26,664 bases of DNA from a virus, in IMG/VR virus record IMGVR_UViG_3300042516_001737, positions 1 to 26,664 of that record; one strand, 5' to 3'. The notes beneath the pieces are model-generated. The model had not been told where the DNA came from and ran no database searches. It saw only the letters and a program-made list of their open reading frames with translations. Each line of letters begins with the position of its first letter. Position 1 is the first letter of the stretch. A program made the position numbers and the translations under genes. Below, piece by piece: positions 388 to 22,440 of the stretch.

Positions 388-3300
388 ATGAGTGATGTTA
401 ATGCCAATATTGGCGTACAAATTGATACGTCGTCCGCATTAGCAGAACTTAAAAATCTACAGCGTCAACTTGCAAATTTTCATGCATCAATAGCAAAAAC
501 TAGCGCAGCCGCTTCAGCAGCGCAAAAGGGGTTGCAAACCAATCTCTTAAATTCTATCAATGCTACAGGGCAGTTTCATGCCACAATGGGCAATGTTAGA
601 ACATCTACGGAGTCATTTACTCACGCATTAGAGTCTAATAAACTTTCAATGCGTGAGTATTTCCGTTATGCTGGTGGTGCATCAAAAACTTTTGGAAGGC
701 TATTTAGACAAGAGTTTGACACAATTGGCAAGGTAGCCGAAGAACGTGTAAAGAAGATGCAGACCCAATATATTAAGATGGGTCGAGACGCAAGCGGTGC
801 AATGAAGGCTATGGCAATTATGCCAACTACATTGAACATGGATGACTATGCTACAAAAACAGCAGTTGCTGCACAAAGACAAGCATTATTTAATCAGTTA
901 ATAAAACAAGGATCTACACAACTTTTAAATTTTGGTAAAAATACCCAGTGGGCAGGCCGCCAACTTATGGTTGGTTTTACAATACCGCTTGCATATTTTG
1001 GCACAACTGCCTCTAAAGTATTTATGGATCTTGAAGCACAGGCTATTAAGTTTAAGCGTGTTTATGGAGACATGTTTACAACTGCTGATGAAACAAATAA
1101 AGCACTTGCAGATGTTCAGGCATTAGCAGAAGGATTTACTAAATACGGAGTTGCAGTAAGTAAAACTATGGAAATGGCAGCATCTGCTGCCGCAATGGGT
1201 AAAACAGGCGCAGACCTTACAGCACAAGTATCAGAAGCAACTAGACTTGCTGTTCTTGGTGGAGTAGAGCAAGAGCAGGCTCTTGAAACAACTATATCAC
1301 TTACAAATGCATTCGGTATTGCAGCAGAAGATCTTGCAGCAAAAATTAACTTTCTTAACTCTGTAGAAAACCAAACAGTTGTATCTATTGAAGACTTAAC
1401 AATTGCAATTCCTAAAGCGGGACCAGTTGTTCAACAACTTGGTGGCAATGTTGAAGATTTAGCATTTTTCCTTACAGCAATGAAGGAAGGTGGAATTAAC
1501 GCATCAGAAGGTGCTAACGCACTCAAGTCTGGTCTTGCATCATTAATTAATCCAAGTAAAAAAGCAAGCGAATTTCTTGGTAGTCTTGGCGTAAATATTA
1601 AAGGAATTGTTGAAACAAATAAAGGTGATATAAAGGCAACAGTTATAGGATTTGCACAAGCCCTAGACACACTTGCACCACTTGATCGCTCAAGGGCAAT
1701 CGAACAACTTTTTGGAAAATTCCAGTTTGCCCGTCTATCAACATTATTCCAGAATATCACTAAAGAAGGAACACAGGCAAGTAAGGTTTTAAAGATGGCT
1801 GGTGCTTCAGTAGAAGAACTTGCAATCTTATCTGAGCGAGAATTAAAAACAGTAGAAAATGCTGTGGGTGTACAATTTAAGTCAGCAGTAGAGGAACTAA
1901 AGTTAGCAATTGCCCCAATAGGAAAAACATTTTTGCAGGCTGTAACACCAATCGTAAAGGTTGTTGGAGATCTTCTTGACAAGTTCAATAATTTAGGTGA
2001 TGGCACAAAGAAGTTTATAGTAATTGCATCTACTCTTGTTGGAATTATTGGACCAACACTGTTAATGACTTTTGGTTTGGTTGCTAACGGTGTAGCAAAT
2101 ATTATTAAGTTATTCCTTGCACTACGTGGAGGATTTCTAAGATTAGGTGGCAATAGCAAGATTCTTGCAGAGCAGACTAACTATCTCAATGCAGAACAGT
2201 TAGAGTCTGCAACAGTTGCTGCTTCACTTAACCAAGCACACACAAGACTTACACAATCATTTACCGCACAGGCTTCTGCTGTAAGAGCACTAAGACAAGC
2301 ATACATAGATGCAACTGTCGCTGCAGCAACATTTGCTAGAGCAAATCCAGGAATGATGATGCCTACCAGAGGTGGTAGGACACCAAAGAAATTTGCAAGG
2401 GGATCAACATATGTACCAGGAACAGGTAATAAAGACACAGTACCATCTATGCTTACCCCTGGAGAAGCGGTTATTCCAAGAGACATTGCTCAAAATCCAC
2501 AATTCCAGCCAATCATTGATGCGTTAGTTACTGGAAAACTTCAAGGGTTTGAAGAGGGAACTGTAAATGTAGGTGGTAAATCATTTAAGACAACTAGTCA
2601 GAAGAGTGCAAGAAGTCTTGAAAGCGCCATTGCTGAACTAAGATCTCAAGGCATACCAGAAGAAAAGATTATTTGGGCACTAGAAACAAATGTGTCAAAG
2701 GGTCGACCAATGACCAAAAGCCAACTATTTAGACGTTTAAGTATTAATCGTGGTTCAAGTTCTGGATCATCTGCTCCGTCATCAATACGAAATCTTGCAA
2801 AGCAATCACAATCTGGCTTCCTTCAAGAAACAGAAGTAATTAAAGAATCGCTTAAAAAACAAGGGGTAGTGTTAACTCCAGCACAAGAAAAGAACTTGTT
2901 TAATGTTCAGGCATCTCACATTGAAGAAACAAGAACTGGTGGAGTAAAAGAGTGGAACGCTAAAAACCTTGTTGCTGATTTAGGATATGTCAATAACTAT
3001 ATAAATACTGTAAAGGGTAAACTTGGAACAGATTTGCTTAAAATGTCTGATGCAGAATTACAAAAACTTGGAATTGATAGAAAAGAACTTCAAAAATTAC
3101 AAGCAGGAACTCACCCTACTACAGCAGAAGCAGCAAAAACTTTAAGAGCCGTTGCCCAATATGATTCAATTCGCAACCCAAATTCATACCAAGCCAAAGC
3201 GGTTGTTGCTGGATTAGAACATAGAGCAAAAACAAATTTCTATGCAACACCAATGAAAACATTAGAAGAAAGTAGACCTCCTGCAAGTAAGGTAGAAAAA

Positions 3301-6300
3301 TCAATAAAGTCTAGAGCAGATTTAGCAGAACAAGAAAGAAATGCTAAAGCAGGTAATGACTCTGAGCAAATAATGAAGCAGATAGATAAAGACATAAGAA
3401 GAACTGCTTTAGGAAAACAAGCACCAACAGATTTTGGAAAACAAATATCTCCAACAACTGGACATAGTTTTCCAGTTAAAGGTTTGGGCGGTGTATATCA
3501 AAAGCCAGACGGCAGCATGGTATTTGTTAAGCCAGTCATAGACGCAAAAGCGGCTTTAGCAGAACAAAGAGCAACTATTATTGCTAGAGAAGCACACGGG
3601 CTAGATTCACCAAAACAAGAAATTAAGACTATGCTTGACCCATCTGATCCAACAGGCAAGAGAAAACTCATTGTTTTAGAGTCTGCCTTTGATCCTAAAT
3701 TTAATCCAGAAACTATGACTGGAAAATTTACAAAGGACGAATATTTTAAACAACTTGTTGCAGCAAACCTTCGTGGAGATAAAGACCTAGGTAGAGGAAA
3801 TCTTTCTGGCAATGTTCTTGCAGATGTTGGAACAGCAGGAGTTTTTGAAAAGGCATCTGGAAAAAGAGATTATGCCAAAGTAATGCCATCAATGGCAGAG
3901 CAGGCAAGAATTAATTTACTTGGAGTAAAGGGTGGTGCAAAAAAATTCTTTGCAGAATCAACACTTGATATTCCTAAAGGAATGACCGCAGACGAATATC
4001 ACACAAGAATGATAAAAGAAATTGATACGGTGCTTCCAAAACTAAGAGAAACTGTATCAAGACTTGATCTCACCCCTGCAGAAAGAACAGTTTATGCTGG
4101 CATGATTGCAAGGCTTGAGGAAGGAAGAAAGGTTGATTGGAGAGAATTCCACAAACTTCACTCTAGCGTTGTTGTTACAAAGAAAGAATCTTTACAAGAT
4201 AAAAAAACTAAAAAAATATCTCCAATTAAAGGCAAGCCAAAGCCTGCAAATGTAAAATCTTCAAGTAAAGATCCTGCAGATAAAATTATTACACAAGTTC
4301 CTCCAGGCAAAAAGGTTGTACAAACACCTAAGACAGGTAGGATAGTCCTTCCAGGACGTGCAGATGCTCCAGAAGCCGACACTGCGGTAAGAGGTGTTCG
4401 TCTTAGTGATGCACAAAAACAGTTTAGAGCAGAGCAAAACTCTTTAAGAAGACAAATTCAAAAACTTGAAAAAGAAAAACTTGCAAGAGAAAAAAAGTTT
4501 GGGCCTGTTCGTGAAGTTAAAGATCGTCAGTTTAATTCAGAGCAAAACTCTTTAAGAAGACAAGTTGAAAAAAGCCAGAAGGAAAGACTTCGCCTAGAAA
4601 AAGATGAAATACGTGCTCAAAAAGTAAGAGCAGAAATATTAAAAAATGGCACCAAGGCTTTAGATAATGCTCTTGTAGCAACAGAAGATTCAAACAAAGC
4701 ACAAATAAGTACAAAAGAAAAACTTACACAGTTTAGTAATAAAGCAGGCCTTGGCATTGGGGCAATGAGTGGTTTAACAGTTGCTGCCTCATTTGCTGGT
4801 GGCAAGGTTGGAGAAATGGCTCAGACAATTATGCCATTTGTATTTGGCTTACAAGGCATAGTAATGCTACTTCCGCTACTGGCCAATCCCTGGGTAGCAG
4901 CAATTGCAGCCGTTGCTGCTGTCGGTGGTGCCATGTGGAAAATGGCCAAAGACGTTGAAGACGCTAGAAAAGAAGGAGTAAGCCTTGCTCAAGCAATGAG
5001 CATGACTTCTGCTAAACTACAAAGTCTTTCAAAAATAACTGGAACGGTTAGCGCTACAGAAGAAGCAGATAGAAAACGACAAAACACATTAACAGGTGAA
5101 AGTGCAGTTCAAAGAAAATTTGGTCAAAATGTTCTTGGTAGTGAATTTGGTAAAGGCCTTATAGCGGATATTGAAAAGCAAGCAAAGTCTGGGCAAGGTA
5201 TACAAGAAATTGGTAGAAATATATCTAATAGCCTTGCCTATGCAATTCTTCAAGGAACAGTAACAACAGATCAAGCAAAAAGTATTGCCTCTGCACTTGG
5301 AGAAGAATTACAGAGTTATGAGATACCAGCAATCATTAGCGGTAGATTGGTTACGCTTCTTGGACCCAACGGAGAGAATTTAACAAGAGACCCATTACAA
5401 GTAACTCTTGAACTTCAAAAAGACTCAATGTCAAGACAGTCTGATTTCTTTAAAGAAGCGCTAGGAAACATAAAGCCAACTGTAGGTCTTAGTGCTAAGC
5501 AAACTATACTTGCATCAACAGGTGCGGGTGCTGTAGGAGGAGCAGTAGTTGGTGGCGTCGGCGGTGCTGGCGTAGGAGCAGTTCCAGGAGCAATCATAGG
5601 AGGTGCAGCAGGCTTAGTTGGCGGAGTAGGTGCGGCATACTTTAATTCAAAAGATCAAGCACAAAACGCTAAACTAGGTGGAGCAGCATTACAACTTGGT
5701 TTAGAGCAGGTTGGAATGAATAATGGATTGGTTGATTCACTAAATAAACAATATGACATTAAAGTTAAAATGGCAAAAACAGATGCTGAAATTCAAACAA
5801 TTGAGGATCAAAGAAAGAAGGCTCTAGAAACTCTTAATGCTAAAAACAACGAAGCCTTAAATCTTCTTATTGCACAAAAAGATGCTTTTGGTCCAGCCAT
5901 ATTTACAGCGGGAATTAATTCAGCAATAGATGCACTCTACAAAGATGGACCAATGAAAGTTTTTGCAGATGAGGCAAAGAAAGAATTAGAAAATATTGGA
6001 AACGCAGATTTTAAAGCAATGCTTCAAGTTGAGTTTGCGAGTGGAGCACTTGACCCCGTAACAGTGATGAAACTTGCAAATAATGAAAATCTACAAAGTA
6101 AATTTTCTCTTTTGGTCGAAAAAAAGGGAAGTGAGGAAGCAAATGTAATAATGCAACTTCTCATGAAGGCTGGAGCAGACGACACAAATCTTCCAATATT
6201 TATGGATATATTAAACAAAAATCCTAAAAACTTTGACAAGAATATGAATGCTATTAAGGTTCTTGCTAACATGAAACAAAAATATGGAATTAGTATTAAT

Positions 6301-8841
6301 GTTAATGATGATGGCGTATCGCAAGTCAAAGAAGTTGCTGCAATAACTGAAAAACTGGCAGGTATAAAGGGAGAAGAATTAACAAAACAAGCCTTCCTTG
6401 ATCTTGGCATTACTGGGGATATGACAGGGCCAGAATTTGATATACTATGGAAAACCCTTGTTGGTACATCAAACACAATCAATAAGTCAGTTATAGTTGA
6501 CTTTGTTGCTGCTGGAGATGCCAATGTTATCGATGCCTACATGTCTGCTATGGGAATTACAAGACTTAAAGGAAGAAGCGCTGGTGCTCAAAGAAAAGCA
6601 CTTGCGGATAAAGCAGCAGCATGGGCAGTTGGAAGACAAGGCCAAGTTGATAAAAATGGTAACCCTATTGTTAAAAATCCTACCGAAACAACGCCAAAAG
6701 CAAGAAACACAACTTTTGATAGTATACTTCAAGATCTTAAGAATACAAGAGATGCAACTATTGATGCTCAAGGTGGAGCCAAAGAACTTATGCGTATTCT
6801 TGGTAGTAAAAAAGATTTACAACTGTTTAACGGTATTGATCAACAACTATCTAAACTTGGTGCAAACTCCGACTTTATTGATTTTGTTGGTGGACTAGAA
6901 AATGCTATTAAAGAAAAAGTTATTAAAATTAATAAACAAGGAGTTGTTTCATATGGAGAATTTGGTGAGGCTGCTAAAAAAGCATATGATGAAAAACAAC
7001 TTGGAGCATTTAGTTCTAAGTCAGCCATAGCAATAAAAGAATTACAGGGCCAGCGTTCAGGATTTGTAGCACTAAAGGCTGCTGGAGTTGAATCTGCTGA
7101 TGCTATTGAAATGGTTGCAGATGCTACATTTATGGTTTCTCTTGCTGCTCAAAAAAATCCTGAAGAAATTAAAAAGATGGTTGACGAGTGGAAGATCATG
7201 AAAAAAGAAATGAATCTTACCGCTGCTACAACAAATCCACAACAATATTTTAATGACCAAATGGCTGTCGCAGAAAGACAATTTAGTTTCCAAGAAGCAA
7301 TGGCAAGAAGAACTTATGAACCACAAATTGAAGCAACACAAAAACTAGTAGATGCAAACAACGTTCTTATTGACCAGAATCAACGTAAACTTGAAATGGA
7401 TGCTAAATACGGTAGCCGTCAGATTGATAAAATTAATTCTGAGATTGAGGGATTAAACAGACAACTTGCAAAGGGTGTAGATGCTACACTTCAAACTCTT
7501 TCTGTTGAGTCTGCTAAACTTTCAGAAGATCAGGCAACAATTGCCAAAACAGTTGACGGCATTAATCAAAAATACGATTTACAAGAAAAAGCACTTTCAA
7601 AAATATCAGAACTCAACCAAGATATTATTGCTGAAAAGAAAACACAGATATCTCTTGCTGATGCATTAACACAAGGAGATATTTCGGCAGCAGCACAGGC
7701 TGCCCAAGATGTAAGATCTGCTTCTTCAAGTAGAGCACAGCAGTTAGCAAGCGATGCTATCACTGCAGCAAGAGAGTTAGAAATAAATGCAGTTACGGGA
7801 TCATTAACTGGCAAAAATTCAATCGCCATTACAGAAAGACAATATCAGATTGATCGTGAAACATATAAACTTGGAATTCAACGTGCTAGTATTGAAGCGC
7901 AGATTGCTGACAAGCAAGAAGAAATTTATAAAATTGAATTATTGCGTAAGCCAGTAATTGCAGAAATTACAAGACTTGAAGATCTTAACTATAACTATAA
8001 TGTAAATGTTATTCCTGCACTAAAAACAAAACTTCAGGCAGAACTTGATGCAGTAAAAGCACAAAGAGATAGATGGTACGATGCACAATTGGCCATTGAG
8101 GGTGCAAACATAAAAACAAAAGAATTTCAAGATAAACTTACAGCCGCAAACGGAATACTTGCATCGGTAAGCAAGTTATGGGGAGACATTACAGACAAAA
8201 ATCTTAAACTTACAATTCAAACTATCGAAGAAGTTATTAGAAAAGAAGCGTTTTCTCCAACACCACCACCACCACCAACTCCAACTCCAACACCTCCAGT
8301 AGACACTGCAGCAGCACTTAGAAAGTTACAGTCTGGACAAAATCTGTCTGATGCGGAACGAGTAGCACTTGGTATGCAAACCGCAGCAGCCGCCAAAGCA
8401 GCAGCAGATAAAGCAGCAGCAGATAAAGCAGCAGCGGATGCCGCGGCAAAAGCAGCAGCAGATGCAGCAGCCGCAAAATTTGGAACACCATTTGGTCAAG
8501 CAGGATCAGCGTTAAATAAAAAATTAGGAGGGATAGGATTCCTATCTTCTGGTGGTATGGTTCCTAAATATTTTGCTGATGGAGGGTTTTCACGAGGAAC
8601 AGACACAGTTCCTGCTATGCTTACTCCAGGAGAATTTGTTATTAATAAAAATGCAGCAAATAGCATTGGAGTCAACAATCTTAATAGACTGAATAGTGGA
8701 GAATCTTTGGGCAGTTCAGTGTATAATTATAGTGTAGGGATTAATGTTACAAACGCTAATGCAGATGCCAACGATATTGCAAGGGCAGTCATGGGACAAA
8801 TTAAGTATATAGATTCACAAAGAATTAGAGGACAAAGGTAA
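388..8841 (+). CDS. tape measure protein (very long)
   Basis: At 2817 aa this is the tail tape measure protein, which sets tail length and is thought to be ejected with the DNA. Residues about 190-560 resemble the TP901-type phage minor tail/tape measure domain, with Ala/Gly-rich helices and many small-residue heptads. Hydrophobic stretches lie near 540-580 and 1482-1521, and a glycine-zipper segment near 1712-1752. The motif TVPxMLTPGExVI occurs twice, near 685 and 2742, about 2050 residues apart. Between them are a possible kinase-like domain (about 1025-1255) and a charged coiled coil with an internal duplication (about 1345-1410). Residues 2285-2620 are long coiled coil, followed by a proline-rich linker (about 2623-2640) and an Ala/Lys/Asp repeat (about 2666-2696). 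The ATG follows an AGAGGTG ribosome binding site. The stop overlaps the next ATG (TAATG). Confidence 0.93.
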   Translation: MSDVNANIGVQIDTSSALAELKNLQRQLANFHASIAKTSAAASAAQKGLQTNLLNSINATGQFHATMGNVRTSTESFTHALESNKLSMREYFRYAGGASKTFGRLFRQEFDTIGKVAEERVKKMQTQYIKMGRDASGAMKAMAIMPTTLNMDDYATKTAVAAQRQALFNQLIKQGSTQLLNFGKNTQWAGRQLMVGFTIPLAYFGTTASKVFMDLEAQAIKFKRVYGDMFTTADETNKALADVQALAEGFTKYGVAVSKTMEMAASAAAMGKTGADLTAQVSEATRLAVLGGVEQEQALETTISLTNAFGIAAEDLAAKINFLNSVENQTVVSIEDLTIAIPKAGPVVQQLGGNVEDLAFFLTAMKEGGINASEGANALKSGLASLINPSKKASEFLGSLGVNIKGIVETNKGDIKATVIGFAQALDTLAPLDRSRAIEQLFGKFQFARLSTLFQNITKEGTQASKVLKMAGASVEELAILSERELKTVENAVGVQFKSAVEELKLAIAPIGKTFLQAVTPIVKVVGDLLDKFNNLGDGTKKFIVIASTLVGIIGPTLLMTFGLVANGVANIIKLFLALRGGFLRLGGNSKILAEQTNYLNAEQLESATVAASLNQAHTRLTQSFTAQASAVRALRQAYIDATVAAATFARANPGMMMPTRGGRTPKKFARGSTYVPGTGNKDTVPSMLTPGEAVIPRDIAQNPQFQPIIDALVTGKLQGFEEGTVNVGGKSFKTTSQKSARSLESAIAELRSQGIPEEKIIWALETNVSKGRPMTKSQLFRRLSINRGSSSGSSAPSSIRNLAKQSQSGFLQETEVIKESLKKQGVVLTPAQEKNLFNVQASHIEETRTGGVKEWNAKNLVADLGYVNNYINTVKGKLGTDLLKMSDAELQKLGIDRKELQKLQAGTHPTTAEAAKTLRAVAQYDSIRNPNSYQAKAVVAGLEHRAKTNFYATPMKTLEESRPPASKVEKSIKSRADLAEQERNAKAGNDSEQIMKQIDKDIRRTALGKQAPTDFGKQISPTTGHSFPVKGLGGVYQKPDGSMVFVKPVIDAKAALAEQRATIIAREAHGLDSPKQEIKTMLDPSDPTGKRKLIVLESAFDPKFNPETMTGKFTKDEYFKQLVAANLRGDKDLGRGNLSGNVLADVGTAGVFEKASGKRDYAKVMPSMAEQARINLLGVKGGAKKFFAESTLDIPKGMTADEYHTRMIKEIDTVLPKLRETVSRLDLTPAERTVYAGMIARLEEGRKVDWREFHKLHSSVVVTKKESLQDKKTKKISPIKGKPKPANVKSSSKDPADKIITQVPPGKKVVQTPKTGRIVLPGRADAPEADTAVRGVRLSDAQKQFRAEQNSLRRQIQKLEKEKLAREKKFGPVREVKDRQFNSEQNSLRRQVEKSQKERLRLEKDEIRAQKVRAEILKNGTKALDNALVATEDSNKAQISTKEKLTQFSNKAGLGIGAMSGLTVAASFAGGKVGEMAQTIMPFVFGLQGIVMLLPLLANPWVAAIAAVAAVGGAMWKMAKDVEDARKEGVSLAQAMSMTSAKLQSLSKITGTVSATEEADRKRQNTLTGESAVQRKFGQNVLGSEFGKGLIADIEKQAKSGQGIQEIGRNISNSLAYAILQGTVTTDQAKSIASALGEELQSYEIPAIISGRLVTLLGPNGENLTRDPLQVTLELQKDSMSRQSDFFKEALGNIKPTVGLSAKQTILASTGAGAVGGAVVGGVGGAGVGAVPGAIIGGAAGLVGGVGAAYFNSKDQAQNAKLGGAALQLGLEQVGMNNGLVDSLNKQYDIKVKMAKTDAEIQTIEDQRKKALETLNAKNNEALNLLIAQKDAFGPAIFTAGINSAIDALYKDGPMKVFADEAKKELENIGNADFKAMLQVEFASGALDPVTVMKLANNENLQSKFSLLVEKKGSEEANVIMQLLMKAGADDTNLPIFMDILNKNPKNFDKNMNAIKVLANMKQKYGISINVNDDGVSQVKEVAAITEKLAGIKGEELTKQAFLDLGITGDMTGPEFDILWKTLVGTSNTINKSVIVDFVAAGDANVIDAYMSAMGITRLKGRSAGAQRKALADKAAAWAVGRQGQVDKNGNPIVKNPTETTPKARNTTFDSILQDLKNTRDATIDAQGGAKELMRILGSKKDLQLFNGIDQQLSKLGANSDFIDFVGGLENAIKEKVIKINKQGVVSYGEFGEAAKKAYDEKQLGAFSSKSAIAIKELQGQRSGFVALKAAGVESADAIEMVADATFMVSLAAQKNPEEIKKMVDEWKIMKKEMNLTAATTNPQQYFNDQMAVAERQFSFQEAMARRTYEPQIEATQKLVDANNVLIDQNQRKLEMDAKYGSRQIDKINSEIEGLNRQLAKGVDATLQTLSVESAKLSEDQATIAKTVDGINQKYDLQEKALSKISELNQDIIAEKKTQISLADALTQGDISAAAQAAQDVRSASSSRAQQLASDAITAARELEINAVTGSLTGKNSIAITERQYQIDRETYKLGIQRASIEAQIADKQEEIYKIELLRKPVIAEITRLEDLNYNYNVNVIPALKTKLQAELDAVKAQRDRWYDAQLAIEGANIKTKEFQDKLTAANGILASVSKLWGDITDKNLKLTIQTIEEVIRKEAFSPTPPPPPTPTPTPPVDTAAALRKLQSGQNLSDAERVALGMQTAAAAKAAADKAAADKAAADAAAKAAADAAAAKFGTPFGQAGSALNKKLGGIGFLSSGGMVPKYFADGGFSRGTDTVPAMLTPGEFVINKNAANSIGVNNLNRLNSGESLGSSVYNYSVGINVTNANADANDIARAVMGQIKYIDSQRIRGQR
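3460..4152 (+). other. possible kinase-like domain within the tape measure
   Basis: Residues about 1025-1255 of the tape measure do not look like tape measure sequence. They contain a beta-hairpin with a lysine (GGVYQKPDGSMVFVKP, K1048), a helix with E1059 and E1068, a hydrophobic strand LIVLESAF (1094-1101), and a segment RGDKDLGRGNLSGNVLADVG (1129-1148) followed by VFEKASG. This order resembles the ATP-grasping lysine, helix-C glutamate, hinge and GDxxxxN catalytic loop of PI-kinase/HipA-like folds. The expected metal-binding aspartate after the loop is not clear: D1146 is a candidate, and E1154 sits where an aspartate might be. A degenerate or structural domain, or a wholly different fold, is possible. 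Confidence 0.3.
4430..4563 (+). repeat. in-frame 108-base duplication in the tape measure coiled coil
   Basis: A 26-base stretch at 4430-4455 recurs exactly at 4538-4563, 108 bases (36 codons) apart. The encoded segments share EQNSLRRQ and then diverge while keeping the Lys/Glu-rich coiled-coil pattern (QIQKLEKEK versus QVEKSQKER). This looks like a tandem duplication of a 36-residue helical unit, with one well-conserved core left. It extends the rod without changing the reading frame. Confidence 0.75.
5518..5640 (+). other. glycine-zipper segment of the tape measure
   Basis: Residues about 1711-1752 are almost entirely Gly, Ala, Val and Ile with GxxxG spacing (for example GGAVVGGVGGAGVGAVPGA). 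Such segments pack into or across membranes. In a tape measure protein this would fit a part that inserts into the host membrane to help form the DNA channel after ejection. That role is inferred from composition only. Confidence 0.55.
8398..8475 (+). repeat. Ala-Ala-Ala-Asp-Lys codon repeat
   Basis: A 15-base unit encoding AAADK is repeated exactly at 8398-8412 and 8413-8427. It continues as degenerate copies to about 8475 and gives a TolA-like Ala/Lys/Asp helix near residues 2671-2696 of the tape measure. It follows a proline-rich stretch (8254-8300). The run is prone to replication slippage and looks like a flexible or helical spacer before the C-terminal conserved motif. Confidence 0.8.
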
Positions 8842-17820: not shown

Positions 17821-19039
17821 TACAGAGGCAAAGGTAATTACCGCAGTATTAGAGGATAAACAGATCCATGTACTACTTCAAGCCAATGTAGAAAACCTAT
17901 TAAGGACACATAGTGATATATGGAACTTTATTCGTTTATATTCAGAAAATAATCAATGCCTACCACCTTCAGATTTAGTAAGAGAAAAGTTTCGTGACTT
18001 TGAGCCAGTATCTGGTGTTGGCTCTACTAAGCATCACCTTTCAGAACTTCAAACAGAGTATCTAAGCGATAGCCTAAAAGACATTCTTCGTAATGCTGCA
18101 GGCGAGGTGCAGGGTGGAAATGGTGTTGGTGCACTTGAACATCTTATTACAAAGACCTCAGAACTTAAAAAGAATACTGCAGCAATTCGTGATATTGATG
18201 CAACAGACCTTGAAGATGCAGTCGCTTATTATGAAAGAGTACAGAAACAAAATGAACTAGGTGCTGTTGGTATTAAGACTGGTCTTCCAGGATTTGATAA
18301 CTATCTACCTGCTGGAATTATGCCAGGACAACTTGGAGTCTTTCTTGCCTATCCAGGTATTGGTAAGTCTTGGATGGCTTTGTACTTTGCTGTGCAGGCA
18401 TGGAAGCAGGGGAAGTCTCCTATGATTATTTCACTCGAAATGTCTGAGACAGAAGTTCGTAATCGTGTATTTGCAATTATGGGTGAAGGACTTTGGTCTC
18501 ATCGAAAGTTATCCAATGGTGAAATTGAAATTGATATGCTTCGTAAGTGGCATGCAAACAAGGTAGAGGGTCGACCAGAGTTCCACATTATTTCAAATGA
18601 TTCAGGTGGAGAGGTAACACCTTCTGTGATCCGTGGAAAGATTGACCAGTACAAGCCTGATTTTGTTGTGGTGGATTATCTCCAGTTAATGAGTCCAAAC
18701 CAAAGGGCTGATAATGAAACGGTAAAGATGAAGAACCTTTCCCGAGAACTTAAACTAATGTCTATCAGTGAAGAAGTACCTATCATTGCTATCTCATCTG
18801 CTACACCTGATGATGTAAAAGACCTGAGCACACCACCTACATTAGGACAAACTGCTTGGTCTAGGCAAATTTCTTATGATGCTGACTGGCTTCTTGCCCT
18901 AGGTCGTGGAACAAATAGTGATATTATTGAGTGTGTATTTAGAAAGAATCGTAATTGGTTTATGGGCGACTTTTTAGTTCAGGTAGATTTTGATAAAGGT
19001 TACTATCGTTATAAAGATTTTGAGGATAAAAATGTTTAA
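17813..19039 (+). CDS. DnaB-family replicative DNA helicase
   Basis: This 408-aa protein matches the RecA-like motor of hexameric DnaB helicases, which unwind DNA ahead of the fork. The Walker A is AYPGIGKS (residues 179-186) and the Walker B is FVVVDYLQL (284-292, D288). A motif near ISLEMSETEVRNRVFAI follows the first strand pair as in DnaB, and the region SRQISYDADWLLAL with RKNRNW leads to the arginine-finger end. The first 160 residues form a helical N-terminal domain shorter than in bacterial DnaB (about 450-470 aa overall). The start is GTG, with AGGAG at 17801-17805. It overlaps the upstream gene by 8 bases and the next gene by 8 bases. Confidence 0.92.
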   Translation: MNNTEAKVITAVLEDKQIHVLLQANVENLLRTHSDIWNFIRLYSENNQCLPPSDLVREKFRDFEPVSGVGSTKHHLSELQTEYLSDSLKDILRNAAGEVQGGNGVGALEHLITKTSELKKNTAAIRDIDATDLEDAVAYYERVQKQNELGAVGIKTGLPGFDNYLPAGIMPGQLGVFLAYPGIGKSWMALYFAVQAWKQGKSPMIISLEMSETEVRNRVFAIMGEGLWSHRKLSNGEIEIDMLRKWHANKVEGRPEFHIISNDSGGEVTPSVIRGKIDQYKPDFVVVDYLQLMSPNQRADNETVKMKNLSRELKLMSISEEVPIIAISSATPDDVKDLSTPPTLGQTAWSRQISYDADWLLALGRGTNSDIIECVFRKNRNWFMGDFLVQVDFDKGYYRYKDFEDKNV

Positions 19040-19760
19040 CAAAAATAAAAAAATTATATTTAAGGCACAAGAAGAGCATGCACAACTTCTTAGTCCTATG
19101 CCAAAGCCAGCATCAAAGACAATTCCAGATTGGTATAAAAAACAAAAAAACTTTTCTAATGGTCATAATGATCCAGTGCGTGGATTTAAAGATAAAGCAG
19201 AGGCAACTTACAAGTTCTGTATTCCATTTGTTGACACACTTACTTCTGGGTACATGTTTACACTTCCAGCAACAATTTTTGTTGAAAATATAGGCACAGA
19301 AGGAAACTACGAACCTTTTATAAGTTGGAAGGTAAGTTGGAAAGTTCTTGATTCTATAAAGCCAGAAGCCTATCAAGGATACCCAACACCAACTGGGTAC
19401 AACCCTTTTATATTTAGGTGGTATGCAGGATTTAAAATACAGACTCCAACTGGTTATAGTTCTTGGATAACACATCCATCACATAGGTGGGATCTTCCGT
19501 TTTTAACTATGAATGGTCTTGTTGATACAGATAAGCAGCCAAATAGTTTACTTTTGCCATTCTTTATTAAAGAAGGGTTTGAGGGAATGATTGAAGAGGG
19601 AACGCCTATTGCACAAATAATTCCAGTAAAAAGAGAAACTTGGAAATCAGAAAAAATGGACATGTCTCCAGAAGATGCTTTTATTCAGGCAAATTCTAGC
19701 AAGATTAATTATTCACAAACTTATAGAAAAAAATATTGGGCAAAGAAAAAGTATGAATAG
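19032..19760 (+). CDS. unknown family, dUTPase-like fold candidate (copy A)
   Basis: This 242-aa protein is a paralogue of the one at 21718-22440. The two share MPKPA followed by PDWYK near residues 23-36, a middle part with strand pairs, a GYSxxITHP segment, IKEGFEG, GTP..QIIP.KR, and a closing YxKxYW. The order GLVDTD (162-167), then EEGTPIAQIIP (188-198), resembles motif 3 and motif 4 of trimeric dUTPases and dCTP deaminases (G-V-I-D-x-D, then G-x-x-I-A-Q). The classic dUTPase serine motif is not clear, so activity is uncertain. I chose the ATG at 19032, overlapping the helicase stop, because an upstream ATG at 18990 would overlap the helicase by 50 bases. The 3' end overlaps the primase start by 8 bases. 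Confidence 0.55.
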   Translation: MFNKNKKIIFKAQEEHAQLLSPMPKPASKTIPDWYKKQKNFSNGHNDPVRGFKDKAEATYKFCIPFVDTLTSGYMFTLPATIFVENIGTEGNYEPFISWKVSWKVLDSIKPEAYQGYPTPTGYNPFIFRWYAGFKIQTPTGYSSWITHPSHRWDLPFLTMNGLVDTDKQPNSLLLPFFIKEGFEGMIEEGTPIAQIIPVKRETWKSEKMDMSPEDAFIQANSSKINYSQTYRKKYWAKKKYE

Positions 19761-21717: not shown

Positions 21718-22440
21718 ATGGAAAAAATGAAAGAAATACTTTTTGTAACAGAAAACAAACTTGTTGAAGAAGTAATTCCCATGCCTAAACCAGCAAAATT
21801 TTATTTGCCAGACTGGTATAAGAACACAACAAAATTTTTTAATGGAAACAAATTAGAATTTGATGAAAGTTTTAATCCACTACTAACAGTAAAAGCATGC
21901 ATGCCACTTTTTGACATTTTATCCATGGGGTACATACAAGAAACATGGTGTGATATTCACATTTCTAGAATTAACGGCGCACTCTCATACTCTTATAAAT
22001 ATCCAGAAGTTGAAATCATGGGAGACAGAGATATTCGTGGACTTGGAAAGTTTAATATTCCAGAAGGCTACGATAACGTTTTTTTTCATTGGAACAGGGT
22101 ATGGAATCCAATTTTGCCAAAAGGATATAGCGCAATAATTACACACCCATTTTACTCCGACGATCTACCATTTAAATCATTTTCTGCAGTGGTAGATTAT
22201 GATAATTACAACTTATCTGGTAAAGTTGGTTTTGTAATAAAGGAAGGATTTGAGGGAGTTATTCCTGCTGGAACACCAATGTATCAAATCATTCCATTCA
22301 AAAGAGACAATTGGATTTCAAAAAAACATGTTTTAACAGAAAAAGAAAAGATCAAGTTAAAAACACAAAGGTTTAATGTTTCAAAACTTTTTTCAAATGC
22401 ATATAAAAAAATATACTGGAATAGGAAAGAATTTAATTGA
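21718..22440 (+). CDS. unknown family, dUTPase-like fold candidate (copy B)
   Basis: This 240-aa paralogue of copy A shares the MPKPA...LPDWYK opening (residues 22-35), a FFHWNRVW segment, GYSAIITHP, IKEGFEGVIPAGTP and a closing YKKIYW. The motif AVVDYDNYNLSGKV (D160) resembles dUTPase motif 3 (G-V-I-D-x-D-Y-x-G-x) more closely than copy A does. AGTPMYQIIPFKR (184-196) matches the motif 4 region. A dUTPase/dCTP-deaminase-like beta fold is therefore plausible, but activity is unproven. An alternative is a related beta-barrel with another role. Start choice is uncertain: ATG at 21718 or 21727, neither with a strong ribosome binding site. It follows the terminator and overlaps the polymerase start by 4 bases. 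Confidence 0.5.
   Translation: MEKMKEILFVTENKLVEEVIPMPKPAKFYLPDWYKNTTKFFNGNKLEFDESFNPLLTVKACMPLFDILSMGYIQETWCDIHISRINGALSYSYKYPEVEIMGDRDIRGLGKFNIPEGYDNVFFHWNRVWNPILPKGYSAIITHPFYSDDLPFKSFSAVVDYDNYNLSGKVGFVIKEGFEGVIPAGTPMYQIIPFKRDNWISKKHVLTEKEKIKLKTQRFNVSKLFSNAYKKIYWNRKEFN

Follow-up and report, generated by a model that had tools for sequence, protein, structure and literature searches.

Tape measure gene and its kinase-like domain

The 26.7-kb IMG/VR virus record IMGVR_UViG_3300042516_001737, analysed here over its full length (positions 1 to 26,664; hereafter the window), carries tail genes first and then replication genes. Its longest open reading frame (ORF) encodes a tape measure protein (TMP), identified as such by its profile matches to PhageMin_Tail (PF10145, E = 5e-23 in a Pfam scan) and to the ‘tail length tape measure protein’ family phrog_10030 (E = 4e-97 in a PHROG scan), by its length, and by its location among the tail genes, with further tail-type genes coming after it. 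The TMP contains a kinase-like domain (Table 1), which is the subject of this analysis. A first-pass annotation had singled out positions 3460–4152 of the plus strand as a distinct block within the TMP; the block is in frame with the TMP ORF, coding for residues 1025–1255, and the features listed for it are all present in the protein, namely VFVKP (with K1048), E1059, E1068, LIVLESAF and GDKDLGRGNLSGN (1130–1142).

Table 1. Features of the TMP gene and of the kinase-like domain within it (positions in the window; counts are out of 101 distinct kinase sequences)
Feature	TMP residues	Position	Strand	Basis
Tape measure protein, 2817 aa		388..8841	+	PF10145, phrog_10030, N-terminal identity
Polymorphic stretch between conserved N-terminal and central regions	~641-1431	2308..4680	+	Slot comparison
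Separate domain upstream of the kinase	729-968	2572..3291	+	Alignment of 16 sequences; AlphaFold2 pLDDT 88
Kinase-like domain	~1005-1269	~3400-4194	+	Hidden Markov model limits from homologues; AlphaFold2 model; CtkA match
N-lobe strands with putative ATP-binding K1048 (codon 3529-3531)		3502..3537	+	K 101/101; strand 44-50 of model
Helix C with E1059 (codon 3562-3564)		3544..3591	+	E1059 101/101; helix 53-68 of model
Hinge-like strand KLIVLESA		3664..3687	+	E1098 96/101, S1099 99/101; strand 93-100 of model
Predicted catalytic loop R1129-G-D1131-K-D1133-L-x-x-G-N1138	1129-1138	3772..3801	+	R1129, D1131, D1133, L1134, N1138 101/101
Predicted metal-binding D1146-V-G1148	1146-1148	3823..3831	+	D1146 101/101, G1148 99/101; aligns with V-D-x-G-G of head-region kinases
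ASG motif, past D-V-G	1156-1158	3853..3861	+	99-100/101; aligns with R-A-Q-G of head-region kinases (hhalign)

A single-sequence search of viral contigs returned 44 relatives of the kinase domain, none of them with stop codons, and an alignment search added many, bringing the total to 148 IMG/VR ORFs, nearly all of which are plainly tape measures. These matches show that the block is no chance occurrence. Nearly all are long, with the domain distant from the ORF start; the exceptions are contig-end fragments (e.g. L122) and a 174-aa ORF on the 101-kb contig L123 (around 8001–8724), which is probably a frameshifted or broken reading frame, or a sequencing error, in a TMP. No relatives of the domain were found in GTDB genome contigs.

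Across 101 distinct sequences (mean identity, 51%; 265 columns), 11 columns were fully invariant: K1048, E1059, P1075, F1114, Q1122, R1129, D1131, D1133, L1134, N1138 and D1146. All five canonical kinase positions (K1048, E1059, D1133, N1138 and D1146) fall in this set (hypergeometric p = 4e-8, for positions picked with knowledge of the motif and for related, hence not independent, sequences), and all five are retained in the divergent allele L157, which has 26–30% identity to the others compared. Of the residues expected from the first-pass annotation to be invariant, K1048, D1131, D1133 and N1138 held in every sequence, while N1142 occurred in 78; of its two helix glutamates, E1059 is the helix-C glutamate, by analogy the salt-bridge partner of K1048, while E1068 was kept in 34. 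The final metal-binding aspartate, earlier thought uncertain and the domain therefore possibly degenerate, is clear in the alignment as D1146, eight residues after N1138, an unusually short spacing. Because D1146 is invariant the active site is not degenerate, and no degenerate copies were seen among the 101 sequences, in which the catalytic positions are all intact.

Predicted fold and related head-region kinases

An AlphaFold2 model of the domain built from 26 aligned sequences (predicted local distance difference test [pLDDT], 87.3; predicted template modelling score [pTM], 0.85) is bilobal and kinase-like, in agreement with the PI-kinase/HipA-like fold first proposed from motif order. It carries the lysine on a strand and the helix-C glutamate on the next helix, followed by a catalytic aspartate, an asparagine five residues on and a metal-binding aspartate, residues whose equivalence to those of solved kinases is suggested by the order of the motifs and by sequence-profile alignments. 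The best PDB match by Foldseek was CtkA of Helicobacter pylori (prob = 0.97, E = 1.2e-3), which also ranked first by VIA-align (Z = 11.0, 198 residues, 4.1 Å), ahead of PI4KIIα (Z = 9.8), LepB (9.7), HipA (9.5), HipT (9.2) and VPS34 (9.2). As these top matches are all of the PI3/4K-HipA type, the model supports placing the domain in the PI3/4K-HipA kinase superfamily by fold. Neither outcome that the first-pass annotation named as refuting was seen, the model being bilobal and the homologues unvarying at the lysine and the D....N residues. The adjacent TMP domain (residues 729–968), run through the same pipeline with similar model confidence, stayed at a best Z of 4.5, which argues that the kinase fold is not an artefact of the pipeline. 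CtkA differs from the TMP kinase in being a stand-alone bacterial protein, with 14% identity and no phage tail context, and the HipA and HipT toxins, though of the same fold superfamily, are free toxins, whereas the TMP kinase is part of a structural protein and has no direct sequence match to them.

Matches of the model in BFVD pointed to two viral proteins, GodonK gp67 and HHTV-1 gp13. The gene for GodonK gp67 lies immediately after the portal gene, Forza and Sixama likewise encode a relative beside the portal gene, and the gene for HHTV-1 gp13 lies two genes ahead of a MuF-like gene. Eleven such head-region kinase regions share the pattern N-x-D ... N ... V-D-x-G. Compared by hhalign, the TMP kinase profile matched the head-region family with P = 1.4e-5, in an alignment that pairs lysine with lysine, glutamate with glutamate and the catalytic loops with each other, and D-V-G-x-A-G-V-F-x-x-A-S-G of the TMP kinase with V-D-x-G-G-S-L-x-x-R-A-x-G. 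A repeat comparison gave P = 9.8e-6 (shuffles, 0.15–0.86), and one with 80 more head-region members gave P = 1.5e-6 over an alignment spanning the N-lobe only (reversed and shuffled controls, 0.028–0.6). HHTV-1 gp13 by itself matched with P = 0.0023, with K, E and D-[LI]-x-x-G-N aligned. Judged by these profile comparisons, the TMP kinase is homologous to a widespread, unnamed kinase domain of phage head- and portal-region proteins, encoded by at least 325 IMG/VR stretches; it lacks the N-to-D spacing and the V-D-x-G-G-S-L-x-x-R-A motif of that family.

The head-region proteins (GodonK gp67, Forza gp78, HHTV-1 gp13 and the ADP-ribosyltransferase protein of fHe-Yen8-01) resemble the TMP kinase in being large virion-region proteins with the same K, E, D..N, D-x-G order, but their genes lie beside portal or capsid genes rather than within a TMP, and some are fused to ADP-ribosyltransferase, NUDIX or MuF-type domains. 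Some members share a protein either with LPD38 and NUDIX or with a MuF-type head morphogenesis domain and an ADP-ribosyltransferase, and the fHe-Yen8-01 relative, an ADP-ribosyltransferase, is annotated as ‘phage particle associated’. Members of this family, which has no Pfam name, include those in L221–L300, in L210 (26522–30961) and in L207 (9436–12738), the last being gp13 of the archaeal virus HHTV-1, where the kinase is flanked by the HExxH-type motifs HEMAHD and HEMQHT, suggesting a peptidase on either side of it.

This domain company links the TMP kinase to the polyvalent proteins, large proteins injected with phage DNA, since its homologues share proteins with LPD38, NUDIX, MuF-type and ADP-ribosyltransferase domains. 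Kinase domains have been described in polyvalent proteins as members of the serine/threonine/tyrosine superfamily that have lost the C-terminal subdomain and conserve a histidine and an aspartate; tape measures are not mentioned there (PMC5512222). The TMP kinase differs from the polyvalent kinases of Iyer et al. 2017 in being of the PI3/4K-HipA type and in having a C-lobe. Pfam found PhageMin_Tail alone in this TMP, with no LPD-type or other catalogued polyvalent domain.

Exchange of the kinase between tape measures

Near-relative TMPs were gathered by a shared N-terminus (68–91% identical to that of the window), and 134 TMP slots were compared, 37 of them without the kinase. Among the TMPs with a similar N-terminus that reach far enough, about one third (~24/69) carry the kinase; in the kinase-free relatives the slot is shorter or filled with other sequence. 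Two of these, L135 and L148, are 71–73% identical to the window over TMP residues 641–964 and pick up again near 1432, without a kinase. The kinase was not found in the TMPs of the Streptomyces phages Muntaha and Riptide. Identity in the kinase scarcely follows identity in the TMP N-terminus (Spearman rho = 0.16), with pairs such as L023 and L157 (N-terminus, 79%; kinase, 27%) and L002 and L083 (N-terminus, 47%; kinase, 68%). Given this, and because its presence varies, the kinase domain is gained, lost or exchanged between TMP backbones.

Several different sequences occupy the kinase-free slots of L131, L136, L160, L170, L193, L199 and L206, and these may be other cargoes. It is tentatively proposed that the TMPs of these phages are modular effector carriers, with an exchange slot between conserved assembly regions and the kinase as one of several cargoes that would enter the host with the tail; if so, the tail would offer a way into the cell alongside that used by effectors injected from the head. 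Upstream of the kinase, the domain at TMP residues 729–968 has a conserved H/N-N-Y-N/H pattern, in which the H, N-N-Y-N and H-P residues do not vary. It occurs with and without the kinase and in 19 loci only, which indicates that the two are independent modules. No PDB fold match was found for its model, and an HNH identity considered by eye (H...GG...NL...NN, strand-strand-helix) is not claimed, for want of such a match.

Possible function, delivery and probable host

Most known virion-borne enzymes with a role at the onset of infection are carried in the head, as with T4 Alt and the MuF and polyvalent proteins. TMPs have been described as ejected and then inserted in the cell membrane. The presence of a homologous kinase in a TMP, exchanged between backbones, suggests that effectors have a second way in through the tail tube. 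The explanation favoured here, with moderate confidence, is that the domain is a catalytically competent atypical kinase of the PI3/4K-HipA type, carried as an exchangeable TMP cassette, delivered by the tail and phosphorylating one or more host proteins. The kinase would be synthesized as part of the TMP, itself presumably a virion protein given its tape measure identity; unfolded or compressed, it would travel inside the tail tube and leave it along with the rest of the TMP once the tail opens. Having refolded on the cytoplasmic side of the host, it would use ATP-Mg via K1048/E1059, D1133, N1138 and D1146, and host protein(s) would be phosphorylated as soon as infection begins, which would help the phage to take over or weaken defence; it is in such effects that a benefit to the phage would lie. 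Catalytic competence is probable, and delivery into the host is plausible. An accessory effector fits better than an assembly part, because the catalytic set is never broken and many relatives dispense with the domain.

Several points weigh against this explanation. A domain of ~265 aa, once folded, should be too large for the tail tube of a siphovirus, and the kinase must therefore ride unfolded or extended; it is also unusual for a TMP to carry cargo in its middle. The domain belongs to no Pfam family: searched against Pfam and PHROG, neither it nor its other members gave a credible match, and the same holds for PDB sequence searches with the domain (single sequence and profile). A tblastn search of INPHARED phages gave no match below E 3, and no cultured phage in that collection carries the domain. 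The Foldseek E-value for CtkA is a mere 1.2e-3, and the N-to-D spacing is 13 in the head-region family against 8 in the TMP kinase. Comparison with E. coli HipA by hhalign gave P = 0.37 for the TMP kinase profile and likewise no signal for that of the head-region kinases; there was no Pfam HipA match among 26 domain members, and a search of the window found no HipA_C. As the direct comparison gave no signal, the link to HipA rests on structure and on the weak HipA_2 and LepB_N matches of the head-region relatives.

Fold alone cannot settle the substrate, and an enzyme of this fold might act on something other than a host protein, whether a lipid (PI4K-like, in the membrane crossed by the TMP), a small molecule, or through AMPylation-type chemistry. 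PI4KIIα was the second distinct protein among the structural matches and VPS34 followed further down, and transfers other than phosphorylation are known for some kinase-fold proteins. Yet the best match, CtkA, is a protein kinase, HipA and HipT also score well, and the homologous domains adjoin ADP-ribosyltransferases, which are usually protein modifiers; such an activity is judged rather unlikely, and by analogy with CtkA and HipA and from the ADP-ribosyltransferase company a protein would be the likeliest guess.

A role in virion assembly, in which the kinase would not be injected as an effector but would act in the producing cell, phosphorylating its own TMP, tail chaperones or baseplate proteins, would suit a domain that is a covalent part of a protein made in late assembly and whose catalytic set is invariant. 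Only about a third of similar TMPs carry the kinase, however, so that tails of this type do not depend on it to assemble, and its homologues occur in differently built head-region proteins, which makes such a role improbable. A kinase for superinfection exclusion or defence, expressed late in the infected cell, has a published counterpart in the gut ‘Gratiaviridae’ phages, where a HipA-like kinase gene between the portal and capsid genes was proposed to have this role (PMC8008677). Here the kinase lies within the TMP polypeptide and most of it would therefore end up in virions, so this possibility is given very little weight. Least probable of all is an inactive pseudokinase, its fold retained for binding or as a spacer within the TMP, a reading that the short N-to-D loop might suggest, but against which stands the invariance of K, E, D, N and D in sequences averaging about half identity.

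For the favoured host-acting effector, a published parallel on the tail side is the Sle1-type effectors, tape-measure-related proteins with exchangeable domains that are ejected from the tail-like tube of actinobacterial contractile injection systems (PMC13277306). These belong to a bacterial injection system, carry their domains at the C-terminus and are described without mention of a kinase (PMC13277306), whereas here the kinase is internal to a phage TMP. No case of a kinase inside a tape measure was found among open-access papers. What is new is the location of the kinase in a tape measure together with its short N-to-D loop, virion-borne phage kinases themselves being already known. An old question, whether the TMP only measures and pierces or also brings a host-acting enzyme, becomes testable. 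The enzyme is also a defined one, with point mutants that would separate assembly from effector function.

The TMP N-terminus has 30–32% identity to TMPs of Streptomyces phages (e.g. Muntaha and Riptide), and the DnaE-like polymerase of the window is ~56% identical to its Streptomyces phage counterparts; because of these resemblances, actinobacterial hosts are likely for this phage. It is presumably of freshwater origin. There was no close DNA match to the window in INPHARED. Elsewhere in the window, positions 18990–19760 and 21718–22440 encode two related proteins, both with PMPKPA..PDWYK motifs.
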